Shown one piece after another: positions 2,049 to 31,495 of a stretch of DNA of 64,000 bases (positions are counted from its first letter, which is position 1; every line of letters starts with the position of its first letter). The notes under the pieces were generated by a model. That model was not told the DNA's origin, made no database searches, and saw only the letters and a list, made by a program, of their open reading frames with translations. This DNA comes from Flavobacteriaceae bacterium UJ101 (GTDB lineage Bacteria; Bacteroidota; Bacteroidia; Flavobacteriales; UJ101), in contig CP016269.1 in assembly GCA_001880285.1 (NCBI GenBank), positions 2,552,501-2,616,500 on the forward strand, read 5' to 3'. A program made the translations under genes and the position numbers.

Positions 2049-2098
2049 GTTTGAAGATCATATAGATTGAAAAAATGAGAAAAGGCGCTTTTAAATGA

Positions 2099-2175
2099 TG
2101 TTTATGAAATAGTTATATATTTGAAAGGAAAATAATAACAACAATACAAGTACTGAATTCAGTTTATGTGGATGT
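2099..2175 (+). repeat. Spacer repeat copy A of cassette-like array (partial)
   Basis: Part of the 318-bp gap 1994-2311, which otherwise holds the lysC terminator and AT-rich sequence. The segment TTTATGAAATAGTTATATAT and the following AACAACAATACAAGTACT...CAGTTTAT align, with gaps, to the better preserved copies near 4549-4611 and 6105-6166. It is the weakest of the three copies. Confidence 0.45.
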
Positions 2176-2311
2176 TACTAGTAATAAGATTTTAGTTCCA
2201 AATTTTTAATGTTTATTATTAGTTTTATTGGTTATTAGTGATTTATTTAATTTTAATAATATTGAGATTAATATTGATGGATTCATAATTAAAGATTAAA
2301 AAATAAAATAG

Positions 2312-2836
2312 ATGACTTTTGAAATAGATAAAGCAATTGAAATTCTTGAAAGGACACCATTTACTATAGAAGTATTATTAAAAGGAATCTCTGAGGAATG
2401 GATAATGAACAATGAAGGGGAAAATACATGGAGTCCATATGAAATTGTAGGTCACTTAATTCATGGAGAAAAAACGGATTGGATAATAAGAACAAAAATA
2501 ATCCTTTCAGATTCAAAAAATAAAACTTTTGAACCTTTTGATAGATTTGCACAAAAGAGAGAAAATCAAACAAAGATGATCTCAGAGTTATTAGATGAAT
2601 TTAAGATGTTAAGGACTAAAAATATAAAGGAATTGAAATCATTAAAAATCGATGATTTAACTTTATGTAAAAAAGGAATTCATCCTGAATTGGGAGAAGC
2701 AAAATTAAAAGAATTGCTTTCTGCTTGGGTCGTACATGACTTGGGACATATAGCTCAAATTACCAGAGTAATGGCAAAGCAATATAAAGGCGAAGTTGGG
2801 GTATGGAAAGAATATTTAGGAATCTTAAAAAAATAA
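2312..2836 (+). CDS. DinB-fold family protein
   Basis: A 174-residue protein of the DinB/DfsB four-helix-bundle superfamily, whose members are cytoplasmic metal-binding proteins, several acting as thiol-dependent transferases; the substrate here is unknown. The sequence shows the three spaced histidines expected for the metal site: GHLIHGEKTDW (His48, His51) and VVHDLGHIAQI (His142, His146). Trp40 in the NTWSPYEIVGHL segment is also family-typical. It has no signal peptide. It stands alone in its orientation-matched array, 317 bp after lysC and 86 bp before a methyltransferase, and the leader holds no clear Shine-Dalgarno. It is the first gene of a cassette-like run and may be a recent acquisition. 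Confidence 0.8.
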   Translation: MTFEIDKAIEILERTPFTIEVLLKGISEEWIMNNEGENTWSPYEIVGHLIHGEKTDWIIRTKIILSDSKNKTFEPFDRFAQKRENQTKMISELLDEFKMLRTKNIKELKSLKIDDLTLCKKGIHPELGEAKLKELLSAWVVHDLGHIAQITRVMAKQYKGEVGVWKEYLGILKK

Positions 2837-2922
2837 AGATAAGACATACACCATAAAAGTATAGAACGATCATACTTAACTTATACACGAATACTTTTAT
2901 AGATACTTAAAGTAAAACAACA

Positions 2923-3765
2923 ATGAAAGTAAAAAATATTGTAAGAATTACTGAGAAACCGAACCTCTATGAGAAAGGAACCTCTTTTATGTGGACTGAT
3001 TTACATATTTCAAAGCAATTATTACAAATACATCTAAATCCAGATATTGATTTAGCGAGTCGTAAAAAATCAACAATAGAAAAGACAGTTAAATGGATTT
3101 TAGAAACTAAAAATAGCAATGAGAAACTAAATATTTTAGATTTGGGCTGTGGGCCAGGCTTGTACACAGAACTTCTTGCAAAGAAGGGGCACAATGTTAC
3201 AGGAATTGATATCTCAAAGAATTCGATTGATTATGCTATTAAATCAGCAAAAGAGAAAGGATTGGATATTGATTATCAAAATGCAAGTTATTTGGATGTT
3301 GATTTTGGACAAGAAAAATTTGATTTAGTAGTACTTATTTATACGGATTTGGGAGTATTATTACCCATGCAGAGAGAAAAACTTTTAATTAATGTTTTTC
3401 GAGCGCTAAAAAGAGGTGGAGTCTTTATTTTTGATGTTTTAAAGGATAGAAGATTGAGTGATAAATTATTGCCTAAAACATGGGAAGCCAATAATGCCGG
3501 TTTTTGGAAAGAAATACCATATTTAGCCTTGTCAGAATCGTTTTTGTATGAGAAGGAAAAAGTAATTTTGTTTCAGCACTCTATAATTGCAAGTAATGAA
3601 AATATAGCAATTTACCGCTTTTGGACTCATTTCTTTTCTCAAAATGATATAGTGAAAATGTTAGATAAACAGAATTTCAGAAGTATTGAATTCCAAGAAG
3701 ATATTTTACCTGAAAGTGATATGTGGAATGGAGATCATGTAATATTTACAAAGTGTAAGAAGTAG
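2923..3765 (+). CDS. Class I SAM-dependent methyltransferase
   Basis: A 280-residue cytoplasmic methyltransferase. Motif I is ILDLGCGPG (residues 71-79), followed by the acidic residue ending strand 2 (GID, Asp96) and a post-motif YTDLGVLLP region. The N-terminal SFMWTDLHISKQLLQIHL segment matches a group of stand-alone small-molecule methyltransferases in Bacteroidota and Firmicutes; the substrate is not known. It starts at an ATG after an 86-bp spacer that contains a short inverted pair (AAAAGTAT near 2856, ATACTTTT near 2891). Neighbours are unrelated in function, so context gives no substrate clue. Confidence 0.85.
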   Translation: MKVKNIVRITEKPNLYEKGTSFMWTDLHISKQLLQIHLNPDIDLASRKKSTIEKTVKWILETKNSNEKLNILDLGCGPGLYTELLAKKGHNVTGIDISKNSIDYAIKSAKEKGLDIDYQNASYLDVDFGQEKFDLVVLIYTDLGVLLPMQREKLLINVFRALKRGGVFIFDVLKDRRLSDKLLPKTWEANNAGFWKEIPYLALSESFLYEKEKVILFQHSIIASNENIAIYRFWTHFFSQNDIVKMLDKQNFRSIEFQEDILPESDMWNGDHVIFTKCKK

Positions 3766-3836
3766 AATGAAAGAACCCTATCAGCTGTATTATTCTTGAA
3801 AAATTTTTAATTCAGCTAAAAAAATACAATAATAGT

Positions 3837-4436
3837 ATGAAGTACAAAGAAATTGCAAGAATTATAATTGAGTTAAAAAATGTGGATTTAGAATTTCGAG
3901 ATAAACTTATACAGAATGGTCAACTTGGAAAAGGATATAATAAAGAAATGGAAGCTATACATAATAGAAATGCAAGCGAATTATGTGAAATAATAGACAA
4001 GATTGGTTATCCAACAATAGATAAAGTGGGTAAGGAAGCAAGTGAAGCTGCTTGGTTAATTATTCAGCATGCTATAAGTCAACCTAGTTTTATGAAGAAA
4101 TGTATCAAATTATTAGCAATAGAAGTTGAGCGTAAACAAGCGAATCCTATAAACTTTGCTTATGTGACAGATCGAATAGCAGTATTTGAGGGGAAGCCAC
4201 AATTGTATGGTACACAGTTTGATTGGGATGAAAATGGAGAAATGAGCCCTAATGAGTATGATGATTTGAATAAAGTGAATGAAAGAAGAAAGCTTATTGG
4301 GCTTAATACATTAGAAGAGCAAATTCAAATAATGAAAGAGCGGGTTAAAAATGAAAGATTAACTCCAATAAAAGATTTTGAAGAAAGAAGAAAAGAATAT
4401 AATAATTGGAGAAAATTAGTAGGTTGGATAGATTAA
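3837..4436 (+). CDS. DUF6624 domain protein
   Basis: A 199-residue protein with no signal peptide or membrane segment. It shows the conserved blocks of the DUF6624 family: AAWLIIQHA (71-79), AYVTDRI (108-114) and YGTQFDWD (124-131). The biochemical role of this family is unknown. The C-terminal third is charged and helical (EERRKEYNNWRKLV). The gene lies 71 bp after the methyltransferase. Immediately after its stop comes GGTGTACAACCA, the beginning of a spacer repeat that recurs, degenerate, further along this array. Confidence 0.8.
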   Translation: MKYKEIARIIIELKNVDLEFRDKLIQNGQLGKGYNKEMEAIHNRNASELCEIIDKIGYPTIDKVGKEASEAAWLIIQHAISQPSFMKKCIKLLAIEVERKQANPINFAYVTDRIAVFEGKPQLYGTQFDWDENGEMSPNEYDDLNKVNERRKLIGLNTLEEQIQIMKERVKNERLTPIKDFEERRKEYNNWRKLVGWID

Positions 4437-4444
4437 GAAAATTG

Positions 4445-4656
4445 GTGTACAACCATATGTTTTTTAGTTGATTAATATTATACACGTGGAGAGAGAATGA
4501 AGTATGTGAAAGAAGTTTTGGACTTATATTGATGACACATGAGCTTTGTTTTATGAAATATTAGTATATTAAGATCATAATCAATACTAGTGTTCAGTTT
4601 ATTTCTATTATAGTTATGAGTTATCAAATTCGATTTATCTGGGCATTGTATGCAAA
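4445..4656 (+). repeat. Spacer repeat copy B of cassette-like array
   Basis: Nearly the whole gap between the DUF6624 gene and the next gene aligns with 6005-6210. Matched blocks: 4499-4522 with 6026-6049 (22 of 24), 4549-4570 with 6105-6126 (21 of 22), 4597-4611 with 6152-6166 (14 of 15) and 4626-4648 with 6183-6205 (18 of 23, all differences transitions). The order of blocks is the same in both copies. Confidence 0.8.
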
Positions 4657-4668
4657 CAAAAGATAGTT

Positions 4669-5367
4669 ATGAAAAACAATTTTCTATTATTAATTATTTT
4701 TTTCATTAGCAGTAATGTTTTTACTCAAGAAATATCAATAGAATTGAAAGCGGGCCAAGTTTTCGATATTTTACCTCTTAAACGAAATCAAAATGTAAAC
4801 CCGGAGTTAAGGCAATTCTATTTGAAAGATTCCATTTCTCCAAGGGCAAAAGAATTAGGGTATATCCCTTTAGGTGGAGTTAGAACATCAGAAGTTGCGA
4901 TTCAAGGAAATTTCTCCCCAGATTTAATTGCTTTTGGAGCCTGGAAAGATATGGAAAGTGTGTATGAAATTATGGAGCAAATAGAAAAAGAGTTTCCGAA
5001 TTTTCACCTTTTAAGAAGAAAGATTTGGAGTGTTTTTTATAATACTCATTACGAATTAAAAGAAGATGTGAACTTAAAATTTACAAAAGACAAATTTTAT
5101 GTTGCAACATCCTATTGGACAAAACAACCTTCTTATTACAAGAACTTGATAAAATTGACAACTCAGAATATCAAGAAATATAAGGGGAAGATCATCCTTG
5201 AACTTTCTGAAGGTGAACCTCCTTATGGGTATTATTATAATCCTGATTATTTTTTCATTACTGAATGGGATAGTGAAAGTGAGTTTCAGAAGTTTTTGAA
5301 AGATCATAAATCATTGGAAAAACAATATTTACAACATATTAACCAATTTAAAATAATCATTAACTAG
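4669..5367 (+). CDS. Exported protein with two DUF1330/ABM-like halves (putative)
   Basis: A 232-residue protein beginning with a clear signal peptide (KNNFLLLIIFFISSNVFTQ, cleavage near residue 20), so exported. The mature part seems to hold two similar halves, each ending in a pattern typical of dimeric alpha-beta barrel folds: PDLIAFGAWKDMESVYEIMEQI in the first half and YYNPDYFFITEWDSESEFQKFL in the second. DUF1330-like or antibiotic-monooxygenase-like ferredoxin folds are the best guess; no catalytic residue can be assigned. The preceding gap is spacer copy B and the following gap again opens with GTGTACAAC. Confidence 0.6.
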   Translation: MKNNFLLLIIFFISSNVFTQEISIELKAGQVFDILPLKRNQNVNPELRQFYLKDSISPRAKELGYIPLGGVRTSEVAIQGNFSPDLIAFGAWKDMESVYEIMEQIEKEFPNFHLLRRKIWSVFYNTHYELKEDVNLKFTKDKFYVATSYWTKQPSYYKNLIKLTTQNIKKYKGKIILELSEGEPPYGYYYNPDYFFITEWDSESEFQKFLKDHKSLEKQYLQHINQFKIIIN

Positions 5368-5370
5368 TCC

Positions 5371-5390
5371 GTGTACAACAGCTATATCCT
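5371..5390 (+). repeat. Spacer repeat remnant D (GTGTACAAC start)
   Basis: Three bases after the stop at 5367 the spacer reads GTGTACAACAGCTATA, the same opening as 4445-4453 after the DUF6624 stop. The rest of this 89-bp spacer does not align with the longer copies. Confidence 0.4.
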
Positions 5391-5456
5391 TGCCTCACAA
5401 ATCCTTTTGTATGATACTATAAAAACCATTAAATTGAAATAAAAAAACTCTATATT

Positions 5457-5909
5457 ATGAAACATTCTTTAATTATTATGATTTCAAGTCTCTTTTTTTT
5501 AACTTGTTATGTTAAAGGGCAAACGAAACAGGATTCTTTAGCTATCAAACAAGTTGCTTTAGATTATATCGAATCTCAACATAATGTTAAGCCTGAACAA
5601 TTTGAAAGAGCAGCTCATCCAAGAATGGTTAAAAGAACTTTTTGGACGAATAAAGAAACGGGAAAGGAATATTTGCGAGAGACTTTTACCGATGCTATGA
5701 TTTTACTTGCTGAAACATATAATCAAGATGGGGAAAAATTTCCAAAGAACCCTAAAAAAGAGGTTATCATACTTGATATTTTTGATAGAACAGCTTCTGT
5801 GAAACTTATTGCTGATGCCTGGATTGATTATATGCATATAGTCAAACTCAATGGAGAATGGAAACTTGTGAATGTGTTGTGGCAATTCAATGACTCTGAA
5901 AAACATTGA
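5457..5909 (+). CDS. Exported NTF2-like protein (putative lumazine-binding family)
   Basis: A 150-residue protein with a signal peptide (hydrophobic residues 4-18, cleavage probably after VKG near 21). The mature part reads as a small NTF2-like fold: QVALDYIESQHNVKPEQFERAAHP, a central helical segment, then strands VIILDIFDRTASVKLIADAW and MHIVKLNGEWKLVNVLW. This pattern matches the putative lumazine-binding group (Lumazine_bd_2) common in Bacteroidota; ligand binding is not demonstrated here. It is the fifth single gene of the cassette-like run. Confidence 0.75.
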   Translation: MKHSLIIMISSLFFLTCYVKGQTKQDSLAIKQVALDYIESQHNVKPEQFERAAHPRMVKRTFWTNKETGKEYLRETFTDAMILLAETYNQDGEKFPKNPKKEVIILDIFDRTASVKLIADAWIDYMHIVKLNGEWKLVNVLWQFNDSEKH

Positions 5910-6004
5910 CAAGAAATCTTATCGAATGAATCTGGTACGGTAAAGTAATAGAAGAAACAGTTTTACATGTAAAAAAAACTAAAAATCTTTTTGTTTGACA
6001 ATTA

Positions 6005-6210
6005 CGGTACAAATGGAGTAGAAAGGAAGTATGTGAGATAAGTTTTGGATTTAAAATAGTATTTAATAATGTTTAGTTACTATTTTAATTATATATGAGA
6101 ACTATTTTATGAAATAATAGTATATTTAATAATCAACAACACAAGCACTCGGTTTATTCCTATTATTTAGTAAGGTTATACCGAATTTGGTTTATCTGGG
6201 TGTTGATCTT
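6005..6210 (+). repeat. Spacer repeat copy C of cassette-like array
   Basis: This fills most of the 317-bp gap 5910-6226. It opens CGGTACAAAT and closes GGTTTATCTGGGTGTTG, and aligns block by block with copy B (4445-4656). The first ~95 bp of the gap hold no visible feature. Confidence 0.8.
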
Positions 6211-6226
6211 AATTAAGAAAATTGAA

Positions 6227-6697
6227 ATGAAAATTAGAGAAACTTATAGAAATGATTATACCATTTCAACTGACAAGGATAAATTAGATATTTTGAGTAT
6301 TCACAAATTCCTTGCAAATGAAACTGATTGGGCTAACGGAATTCCAATTGATACTTTGAAAACATCAATTGAAAACTCTTTGAATTTTGGGCTTTATTAT
6401 GAAAACAAGCAAATTGGTTTTGCTAGAATAATTTCAGACTATTCAACTATTGCATATTTAGGAGATGTTTATGTTCTAAAAGAATATAGAGGAAAGGGAT
6501 TAAGTAAATGGCTAATAAATGAAATAATGGAACATCCTAATCTTCAAGGATTAAGACGTTGGATTTTATTGACTAATACAGCTGAATGGCTTTATAAAAA
6601 GTTTGGGTTTACGGAAATACCTAATCCTGAATTTTATATGGAGAAACATAACCCAGATGTATATAATCACCGTTCTCGCACGAATCCTTCCATGTAG
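6227..6697 (+). CDS. GNAT family N-acetyltransferase
   Basis: An acetyl-CoA-dependent N-acetyltransferase of 156 residues; substrate unknown. Acetyl-CoA binding motif A is visible as YLGDVYVLKEYRGKGLSKWL, with the R-G-K-G turn, and the C-terminal WLYKKFGF is the usual motif B. I chose the ATG at 6227 (MKIRETYRNDY) over an in-frame GTG at 6200, because the upstream codons lie inside spacer repeat copy C and would add a non-homologous tail. It is the last gene of the + strand cassette-like run and converges on acs. Confidence 0.85.
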   Translation: MKIRETYRNDYTISTDKDKLDILSIHKFLANETDWANGIPIDTLKTSIENSLNFGLYYENKQIGFARIISDYSTIAYLGDVYVLKEYRGKGLSKWLINEIMEHPNLQGLRRWILLTNTAEWLYKKFGFTEIPNPEFYMEKHNPDVYNHRSRTNPSM

Positions 6698-6734
6698 TAA
6701 TGTGATTTTATAAAATCATCAAGTTAAAAAAAAT

Positions 6735-6795: not shown

Positions 6796-8709
6796 CTAAA
6801 CCAAAGCCCCTTCCATAATTTCTTCTACAATTTCAGGGTTTAGTAGGGTAGAAGTATCCCCCATATTCGAAGTGTCGTTCGATGCAATTTTACGTAAAAT
6901 ACGACGCATAATTTTTCCAGAACGTGTTTTAGGTAATCCGCTAACAAATTGAATCTTATCCGGTTTTGCAATAGGTCCAATATGTTTGGAAACCAATTCT
7001 TTAATTTCTCGTTCTAAGTCTTCATTCACTTCAACGCCATCATAAACGGTTATATAAGCGTATAAAGCTTTCCCTTTTATATCATGAGGAAAGCCTACAA
7101 TAGCCGATTCTACTACTTGCTCATGTTCATTAATTGCATTTTCAATAGGAGCTGTTCCTAAGTTATGACCTGAGACAATTACTACGTCATCTACACGACC
7201 TGTGATACGGTAGTTACCTGTTGCATCTCGATAGGCACCATCTCCAGTGAAGTATTTACCTTCATAAGCTGAAAAATATACTTCTTTATAACGCTGATGA
7301 TCTCCATAAATAGTTCGGGCAATAGAAGGCCAAGGATATTTAATGGTTAAACGTCCCTCAGCTGCGGTACTGTTAAATTCAATTTCATTACCCTGTTCAT
7401 CCATTAAAGCGGGTTGTACACCGGGTAGTGGTAAGGTAGCAAAAGTAGGACGTGTCGGTGTAATGCCGGCAATAGGAGAGATCATAATACCGCCCGTTTC
7501 AGTTTGCCACCATGTATCTACAATAGGGCAATTCGACTTTCCAATATGATCATTGTACCAGTGCCATGCTTCTTCATTAATTGGTTCTCCAACCGAACCT
7601 AATACCTTTAAATGTGATAAATTGTGCTTTTCAACTAATTCTAAAGGATGCTTTTCTAATGCACGAATAGCGGTAGGTGCTGTGTAGAAATGAGTGATGC
7701 GTAGTTTTGCACAAATTTCCCAAAAACGCCCGTAATCAGGATAAGAAGGAACGCCTTCAAACATAACCGTTGTTGCCCCTGAGCATAAAGGTCCGTAAAT
7801 AATATAGGAATGTCCTGTAATCCAACCGATATCTGCTGTACACCAATAACGATCGTTTTCCTCCATTTGGAAAACATTTTGGAAGGTATAAGTAGCACCT
7901 ACCATATAGCCACCACAGGTATGGACCATTCCTTTTGGCTTTCCAGTAGAGCCAGAAGTGTATAAAATAAACAACATATCTTCTGCGTCCATTTCTTCAG
8001 CAGGACATTCGGCTTCGGCTCTTAATAATTCATCTGCCCAGAAAACATCACGACCACCCATCATAGGAGTTGATTCTACCATTCGACGGTATACAATCAC
8101 GCGTTCAATAGAAGGACAATCTTTTAATGCTTCATCACATATTTCTTTTAAAGCTACACGTTTGGTTCCTCTATATACTTCATTTGCTGTAATTAATAAT
8201 TTACATTGTGCATCATTAATTCGGCTGGCAATAGCAGTAGAGGAGAAGCCAGCAAAGACAATAGAATGTACGGCTCCGATTCGAGCACATGCTAACATAG
8301 CAATAGCTAATTCAGGAATCATAGGCATGTACAGGCAGACACGATCACCTTTTTTGATACCGTTGTTTTTTAAAACATTGGCAAAACGGTTTACTTTTAC
8401 GTACAATTGTCTGTATGTAATGTGACGAGATTCTTCATCAGGATCATTAGGCTCCCAGATAATAGCAGTTTTGTTTCCTCGTTCTTCTAAGTGACGATCT
8501 AAACAGTTCTCTGTAATATTAAGCTTTCCACCTTTAAACCAGTTGATTTCAGGTTTACTAAAATCATATTCTAACGTTTTATCCCAAGGCTTTTTCCAAA
8601 GAAATTGGTGTGCGATGTTGTCCCAAAAAGCTTCAGGATTTTCAACACTTTCTTTGTATGCTTTTTTATATTCAGCGAAGGTTTTGATTTGAAAATTTTC
8701 TTGACTCAT
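6796..8709 (-). CDS. acs: Acetyl-CoA synthetase (AMP-forming)
   Basis: Converts acetate, ATP and CoA to acetyl-CoA through acetyl-AMP. The 637-residue product has the N-terminal Acs extension, the phosphate loop YTSGSTGKPKG, the motif TWWQTETGG, and the C-terminal hinge and catalytic-lysine region TRSGKIMRRILRKIA, in which the lysine is the residue acetylated in known enzymes. Length is standard. It is the last gene of a - strand block: the response regulator ends 21 bp upstream, and symporter, porin and sensor kinase lie further up. This makes acetate scavenging under two-component control the likely role. Confidence 0.96.
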   Translation of the reverse strand: MSQENFQIKTFAEYKKAYKESVENPEAFWDNIAHQFLWKKPWDKTLEYDFSKPEINWFKGGKLNITENCLDRHLEERGNKTAIIWEPNDPDEESRHITYRQLYVKVNRFANVLKNNGIKKGDRVCLYMPMIPELAIAMLACARIGAVHSIVFAGFSSTAIASRINDAQCKLLITANEVYRGTKRVALKEICDEALKDCPSIERVIVYRRMVESTPMMGGRDVFWADELLRAEAECPAEEMDAEDMLFILYTSGSTGKPKGMVHTCGGYMVGATYTFQNVFQMEENDRYWCTADIGWITGHSYIIYGPLCSGATTVMFEGVPSYPDYGRFWEICAKLRITHFYTAPTAIRALEKHPLELVEKHNLSHLKVLGSVGEPINEEAWHWYNDHIGKSNCPIVDTWWQTETGGIMISPIAGITPTRPTFATLPLPGVQPALMDEQGNEIEFNSTAAEGRLTIKYPWPSIARTIYGDHQRYKEVYFSAYEGKYFTGDGAYRDATGNYRITGRVDDVVIVSGHNLGTAPIENAINEHEQVVESAIVGFPHDIKGKALYAYITVYDGVEVNEDLEREIKELVSKHIGPIAKPDKIQFVSGLPKTRSGKIMRRILRKIASNDTSNMGDTSTLLNPEIVEEIMEGALV

Positions 8710-29740: not shown

Positions 29741-29906
29741 ATTAAGTTATCCGTATTTTAAAAATAAAGATAAATTTAATAAAAAAAATAAAAATATAAA
29801 ATTAGATTACTTCAGTTTATTGTAAGATTGATGAACTGTAAAAACCGATTAATTATTTTAAATACATAAAAATGATCATCTTTTGAGAAAATAGTTATAG
29901 TAAGTT
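29741..29906. repeat. AT-rich direct duplication, copy 1
   Basis: The 483-bp gap 29672-30154 has no gene. Its main content is a ~160-bp imperfect direct repeat: 29741-29906 aligns with 30006-30166. Both begin ATTAAGTTATC, share AAGATA...TTTAATAAAAAAA, TTAGATTA, ACTTC, TAAGAT, CGATTAA and ATCATCTTTT, and end GTAAGTT. Confidence 0.75.
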
Positions 29907-30005
29907 TTTCAATTTTGTTTATATATTAATTACTGTTTTTATATTTAAATATTGTATTAGTCTAGGTTGTTTTAATAAATGAAATGATGCTTTTTTAATA
30001 TAATT

Positions 30006-30166
30006 ATTAAGTTATCTATTTGTTTAATTAAAGATAGTTTTAATAAAAAAATAAAGATTTAAATTAGATTATTACTTCTTGTTCTAAGATAAATAAACAA
30101 AATATAACGATTAAAATATTGTTAGTGATATGAAATCATCTTTTAAAAAGATGTTTAAAGTAAGTT
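30006..30166. repeat. AT-rich direct duplication, copy 2
   Basis: Second copy of the 29741-29906 block, 265 bp downstream. Its last ~12 bases extend into the 3' end of the DUF58 gene (stop at 30155), so part of that coding end derives from the repeat. Confidence 0.75.
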
Positions 30167-31495
30167 CTTAGATTTTATTTCTAAGTATTGATTAATGGTA
30201 TTGATTATTAAATAATTTGGGTTGGTTAAAATAGTTAAAATCCCATTTTTATTGAGCTCTTTTTCTATCAACTTTTTTTCGTAGATGAATTTTTCAGCTA
30301 GGGTTTTATCATATACATCATGGATATGTTTTGATTTTTTTTGTGTTAATTGATCTAATTCGGAGTTTTTAAAGAGAATAACAACTAGTAAATGGTTCTT
30401 ATTAATGGCTCTTAGGTATTTTAATTGTCTTTTTAAAGAGTCTAACGTTTCAAAATTTGTATAAAGGAACAATAGGCTTCTATGTGTGATTTTATGTTTT
30501 AAGTATACATATAATCGTCCAAAATCAGTTTCTTTAAAATGAGTGTTTATATTGTATAAAGCTTGCTGAATTAAATGCATTTGATTGTTTCTTCGATCTG
30601 CAACAATTAAGTCAGAAAGAGAAGTTGAAAATGTAGCCAAACCAGCTTTATCTTCTTTTTTTAAAGCTACATTTGAAATAACTAAAGAAGTATTGATGGC
30701 ATAATCTAATAATGTCATTCCGTTGAAAGGCATTTTCATAGATCGCCCTGTGTCAATTATAGAATAAACTGATTGAGATTTTTCTTCTACATATTGATTA
30801 ACCATTAATTGGTTTCTTTTTGCTGTCGCTTTCCAATTAATATGACGTATATCATCACCTTTTACATAATCTTTAATTTGATCAAACTCAGAGGAATTAC
30901 CAACACGTCGTAGTTTTTTTAACCCTGATTCTGTCAAAGTTTGTGAAAAAGCGATTAAATCATATTTTTTTAATTGAATGAAAGATGGATAACAAGGGAT
31001 CTCTTGGTTTAGAGGTGTTTCGATATTAAATCGACGCATGACAAACCCTAACTTTTTAGTAAAAACAAAAATATTAATATTCCCAAAAGAGTATAATCCT
31101 CTTTGTGTTGGGCGAAGATAATAGGTTAATGTTTTTTTCTCTTCTGATGGTATGGAAAGTGTTTTTTTGAAATCACGGATTTGAAATTCAATGGGGATTT
31201 CGTCAATAATTTCAGTTTCAATATCAAATGTATAATGATTTTGAATAGCAATTTGTATAGGGTTTTTGTCACCATTAGAAAGTTTATCGGGAACAAATCG
31301 ATCAGCAGATATACCTTTTTTAAGATATAATAAAGCTAAGTCAGTAAAAGTTAAAAATATTAGAATTCCTAAAGCTAGCTGAGCGATATAATATAAAAAA
31401 TCAAAGAAATAGGATAGGAAAAAAAGTAAAGTGATAAACCCTATGCTATAATAAAAACGAATATTTAAATAAAGACTTTTTATAAATGCTATCAT
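30155..31495 (-). CDS. DUF58 domain protein
   Basis: A 446-residue membrane-anchored protein. Two hydrophobic helices lie near residues 10-50. The DUF58 block appears as SSEFDQIKDYVKGDDIRHIN, followed by WKATAKRNQLMVNQY and a von Willebrand factor A-like segment (SVYSIIDTGRSMKMPFNGMTLLDYA) with a partial MIDAS (DTGRS). DUF58 proteins accompany MoxR ATPases. It is the last gene of the five-gene block; MoxR ends 69 bp upstream. The role is probably in assembly or activation of an envelope enzyme complex, but no substrate is known. Confidence 0.9.
   Translation of the reverse strand: MIAFIKSLYLNIRFYYSIGFITLLFFLSYFFDFLYYIAQLALGILIFLTFTDLALLYLKKGISADRFVPDKLSNGDKNPIQIAIQNHYTFDIETEIIDEIPIEFQIRDFKKTLSIPSEEKKTLTYYLRPTQRGLYSFGNINIFVFTKKLGFVMRRFNIETPLNQEIPCYPSFIQLKKYDLIAFSQTLTESGLKKLRRVGNSSEFDQIKDYVKGDDIRHINWKATAKRNQLMVNQYVEEKSQSVYSIIDTGRSMKMPFNGMTLLDYAINTSLVISNVALKKEDKAGLATFSTSLSDLIVADRRNNQMHLIQQALYNINTHFKETDFGRLYVYLKHKITHRSLLFLYTNFETLDSLKRQLKYLRAINKNHLLVVILFKNSELDQLTQKKSKHIHDVYDKTLAEKFIYEKKLIEKELNKNGILTILTNPNYLIINTINQYLEIKSKNLL

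Follow-up and report, generated by a model that had tools for sequence, protein, structure and literature searches.

Two noncoding spacers between the aspartate kinase gene and acs, here called B and C, are homologous to one another, are confined to this locus as a pair and share a conserved stem-loop, which lies at a constant distance from the start codon of the gene that follows. The best of all the readings considered, to which we assign a probability of roughly 45%, is that they arose by duplication of one promoter and structured 5'-leader segment within a region of gene acquisition. According to this reading, the interval between the two flanking genes would be an insertion region that has gathered single foreign genes, and a noncoding segment of ~200 nt would have been duplicated there long ago to give B and C. 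The block TTTATGAAATA..TATATT would act as the promoter from which the transcript starts, while the hairpin within the leader may act on mRNA stability or translation; the promoter role is a predicted one and the regulatory role of the two copies a putative one. If the reading is true, the locus would be a small example, open to testing, of how a single regulatory segment can serve two acquired genes that are unrelated. The features are listed in Table 1, and the window denotes the whole stretch of DNA analysed, 64,000 nt in length.

Table 1. Genes, spacers and stem-loops of the locus (positions are those of the window).
Feature	Positions	Strand	Remarks
Spacer copy A (doubtful third copy)	2068-2173	+	one clear common block, 2101-2122
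DinB_2 superfamily protein, distant YfiT-like	2312-2836	+	Pfam DinB_2
SAM-dependent methyltransferase	2923-3765	+	Pfam Methyltransf_25
DUF6624 protein	3837-4436	+	Pfam DUF6624
Spacer copy B	4457-4651	+	wholly within the gap separating the DUF6624 and exported-protein genes
Conserved stem-loop, copy B	4589-4647	+	59 nt; ends 21 nt ahead of start codon 4669
Fourth gene ("exported protein"), apparent signal peptide	4669-5367	+	no Pfam, NCBIfam or PADLOC match
Short spacer opening with TCCGTGTACAACAGCTATA	5368-5456	+	ACAACA..GCTATA recurs behind a gene in the 828-kb relic array
Lumazine_bd_2 (NTF2-like) protein, apparent signal peptide	5457-5909	+	Pfam Lumazine_bd_2
Spacer copy C	5984-6207	+	wholly within the gap separating the NTF2-like and GNAT genes
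Conserved stem-loop, copy C	6144-6204	+	61 nt; ends 22 nt ahead of start codon 6227
GNAT acetyltransferase	6227-6697	+	Pfam GNAT

In the list of open reading frames, the interval from the aspartate kinase gene (692-1993) to acs (6796-8709) is occupied by six unrelated genes, all of which are present on the + strand with ATG starts; six single genes on one strand are what the original prediction had described. NCBIfam and PADLOC add nothing specific for the six genes, the matches of the methyltransferase and the GNAT protein being generic and far under the cut-off, and the label DUF1330-like, once given to the fourth gene, is unsupported by any Pfam match. Their base composition is not distinct either, with a GC content of 0.29-0.32 versus 0.318 +/- 0.034 in the rest of the window.

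The view that B and C are related spacers proved correct, since 138 of their 196 aligned bases are identical (70%), with 22 of 24 in the best 24-column stretch, and their pairwise score of 61.8 is far above the shuffle maximum of ~31. Their borders were set by profile search, and are narrower for B and wider for C than the 4445-4656 and 6005-6210 given before. The two copies are direct repeats 1.53 kb apart which flank exactly two genes, those of the exported protein and the NTF2-like protein, and copy C has an insertion of 29 nt that B lacks. Another short direct repeat pair in the window (29875-29923 and 30135-30183) measures 49 nt, with 78% identity and a distance of 260 nt.

The consensus fold of B and C keeps 13 pairs in both copies and breaks none, three pairs being changed on both sides and two on one side, and sliding the 3' stem arm by 1-3 columns cuts the pairing from 100% to 19-50%. 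By column shuffling, the 3' part, picked after the stem had been seen, has p 0.0003; over the whole 228-column alignment, the consensus energy reaches p 0.097 and double changes are not unusually frequent (p 0.66). When both strands are scanned in 80-column windows, the stem stretch alone stands out with sense-strand RNA energies (z -5.2), is weaker on the antisense strand (z -2.6), and yields nothing with DNA energies. In addition, several of the kept pairs are G-U, able to pair on the sense strand only. Folded as single copies, the stems of B and C are modest (z -1.4 and -1.7), a scan with a covariance model built on the stem yielded B and C and nothing further in the sequence that it covered, and neither copy has an Rfam match at the gathering threshold. 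Three properties by which a structured leader is recognized, namely compensatory changes, preference for the sense strand and a fixed place before a gene, are present in these two sequences, and two sequences being all on which the covariation rests, its support for the stem is suggestive but thin.

How widespread the spacer is can be stated for several collections. BLAST and a profile of both copies recover B and C as the only two in the 3.07 Mb genome, and hence the self-comparison proposed as a check on the original prediction uncovers no genome-wide spacer family. Among 99 genomes of the order, all outside the organism's own family, only chance short AT-rich matches were obtained, the best of which (in genome G012) sits inside a coding gene, and plasmids, phages and IMG/VR gave no convincing match. 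Spacers restricted to the locus were the very outcome that the same prediction had named as speaking against it, and this is what we found everywhere that was searched. A dispersed repeat or MITE was likewise rejected, as there are only two copies, 1.5 kb apart. A search of genome contigs with the aspartate kinase returned a single relative, a distant one, and no sister genome.

Repeat blocks had been claimed for three gaps, of which those of B and C stand, while copy A is suggestive only: it is the third-best match to the B/C profile in the window (E 0.0098), with pairwise p values of 0.05 (against B) and 0.22 (against C). Its block overlaps the promoter-like TATATTTG at 2116-2123, an exact Bacteroidetes-type -7 box. 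The consensus of this box is TAnnTTTG. Because the one clear block of copy A runs into TATATTTG, its resemblance may reflect promoter likeness rather than descent. The spacer opening reported behind the stop codons at 4436 and 5367 was seen in position, with GTGTACAAC at 4445-4453 and 5371-5379 (8 and 3 nt past the stops) and a count in the window of 3 versus 0.19 expected. Genome-wide, however, GTGTAYAAC is not enriched (29 sites, and 32 when the pattern is reversed), and nearly all of its remaining sites fall within ORFs; it was rejected as a cassette mark. Rejected as well was a flavobacterial site whose ends we take to be GTGTAYAAC..GTTRTACAC, which at that spacing is missing from 348 genomes, apart from one match.

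Relatives of the window genes were counted in samples of about 280-350 genomes of the order. The exported protein has relatives in 4 of 347 other genomes, once beside an integron-like recombinase; the DinB protein has them in 10 sampled genomes, with up to 64% identity, the NTF2-like protein in 9, and DUF6624 has close relatives (58-63%) in 7, scattered across two other families. The relatives of these four genes are patchy, and occur in different genera and in unrelated genomic places. DNA similarity to relatives in other families is confined to the ORFs and ends where they end. Lateral transfer of the NTF2-like gene appears well supported, because its protein is 74-77% identical in amino acids in three genomes of another family, whereas the adjacent aspartate kinase reaches at most 57%; for the remaining genes, lateral transfer is suggested by patchiness. 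None of the six genes is present in the inspected aspartate kinase neighbourhoods of relatives.

The genome encodes six tyrosine recombinases, the nearest of which is 262 kb off, in agreement with the statement that the window holds no integrase, and the proposed search for such an enzyme near the array turned up none closer. One of the six, at 828 kb, is a truncated relic resembling integron integrases; in this relic array (about 826.4-828.1 kb) two single genes come after the recombinase, and there is an attC-like gap that ends in ATACATAAAACGTTGTACTGC. This lineage has, to judge from such remains, met an integron-like system. In a relative from the Flavobacteriales, G078, an intact integron-integrase-like recombinase of 368 aa, which scores under the curated integron-integrase cut-off, heads a single-gene array at 3.05-3.15 Mb that includes attC-like spacers GCCAACACCGTGTAAAA..CTTACACATAAACGTTGTGGGC, several group II introns and a transposase. 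The plasmid NZ_CP041688 of Chryseobacterium sp. SNU WT5 carries an annotated integron integrase, then single genes and spacers with the matching arms AACAAGGTATTTC..GAAATACCCAACC, and has IS110 and a group II intron inside the array. In Bacteroidetes proper, IntegronFinder 2.0 named a complete integron for Salinibacter ruber M1 alone (PMC9024848), and we found no description of Flavobacteriales integron arrays in a literature search that covered subscription journals little. That integron-like arrays with attC-like spacers exist in the Flavobacteriales is a side finding which may outweigh the main one.

The next-best reading, less probable but still a serious rival, is a CALIN-like cluster of decayed integron-like cassettes that has no integrase. 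The single genes would have been inserted by an integron-type recombinase of the Flavobacteriales, of which only the 828-kb relic is left, and worn recombination sites would survive as B, as C and at the beginning of the 5368-5456 gap. The single unrelated genes on one strand and the restriction of repeats to gaps are in its favour, as are the truncated relic with two single genes in the same genome and the G078 array, in which an intact recombinase of the relic's family is accompanied by a homologue of the fourth gene. Copy C has the arms CAACAC..GTGTTG (6137-6204) and copy B the arms CAATAC..GCATTG, in which one pair is compensatory and one broken, but the window has 17 chance arm pairs of the R''/R' type, one of them in spacer C. 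ACAACA..GCTATA (match at 5375), common to the 5368-5456 gap and the 828-kb array, is found twice in the window versus 0.07 expected, as a pattern picked after the likeness had been noticed. A likeness in head and tail to the 828-kb array was rejected, being notable only with the AT-rich leader included. The ends of the comparators are unmatched beyond chance, the ~120 common nt upstream of the hairpin are unexplained by a short attC site, and three gaps (2837-2922, 3766-3836 and 5368-5456) contain no repeat copy. The active form of attC is the folded bottom strand (PMC8618304). The suggested check for an attC-like hairpin, a single-stranded DNA fold in which R''/L'' and L'/R' arms pair, was not convincingly passed: as single-stranded DNA, B folds no better than shuffles on either strand (z +0.4) and C only mildly better (z -1.4 overall, -2.0 for its 3' part). 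This fold test has some power and is not decisive, because four comparator spacers score -2.1, -2.4, -2.8 and -1.1, yet the 828-kb gap scores about 0. The proposal of integron-like cassettes is supported in part: it keeps its one-way unrelated genes, their patchy relatives and the 828-kb relic, and is weakened by the two copies, the unconvincing attC fold and the unmatched ends. We know of no cassette arrays in the family of the source organism; if the integron reading were true, such arrays would extend to a new family, and standard attC searches may miss worn ones.

The duplicated leader is favoured over attC because the stem folds best on the sense strand, keeps G-U pairs and stands at a fixed distance from the start codon; counting against it, the exact TAnnTTTG box is absent from B and C, and the genes behind them have no common function. 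It is quite improbable that both ideas hold at once, with B and C representing an undescribed Flavobacteriales integron variant with a long spacer ending in a hairpin that forms best on the coding strand, one element then being both a cassette border and the 5' leader of the next gene. A functionless leftover, in which intergenic DNA around a two-gene insert was duplicated long ago by a segmental or recombinational event, is rather unlikely. In its favour, the direct repeats flank exactly two genes, transitions and transversions are equal among the mismatches (29:29), and mismatch clustering is not significant (p 0.1-0.6), an absence that fits decay as well as constraint. The mismatches also lack codon phase, for which reason a coding origin of the repeat was rejected. 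Such a leftover would, however, leave unaccounted for the conserved stem equally distant from both start codons, and repeat borders that halt before coding sequence on either side. An ordinary conserved operon or syntenic block, to which the shared strand and short gaps might point, is scarcely credible: four of the genes have their homologues at different loci, mostly in different genomes, no inspected locus (all outside the organism's own family) has two of these four adjacent, and the aspartate kinase neighbourhoods inspected are devoid of them.

Compared with known systems, the locus resembles the arrays of G078 and NZ_CP041688 in its style of cargo, in the fourth-gene homologue of G078 and in the type of recombinase found as a relic in its own genome, whereas those arrays have an intact recombinase and matching spacer arms such as AACAAGGTATTTC..GAAATACCCAACC. 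With integron arrays and CALIN in general, it shares one-way unrelated single genes, repeats only in the gaps and a gene start soon after the repeat. B and C are 1.5 kb apart, and would come within the spacing that defines an integron or CALIN (at least two attC less than 4 kb apart) only if they were attC sites. It differs from them in having no nearby integrase and two copies only, in the DNA hairpin of attC type, which B lacks and C forms weakly, and in spacers of ~200 nt, half of which lie outside the hairpin. Although B and C belong to no Rfam family, have no known relatives and have a regulatory role that is putative, they are like structured 5' leaders and cis-regulatory RNAs in their sense-strand stem-loop, its fixed distance to the start codon and its compensatory changes.
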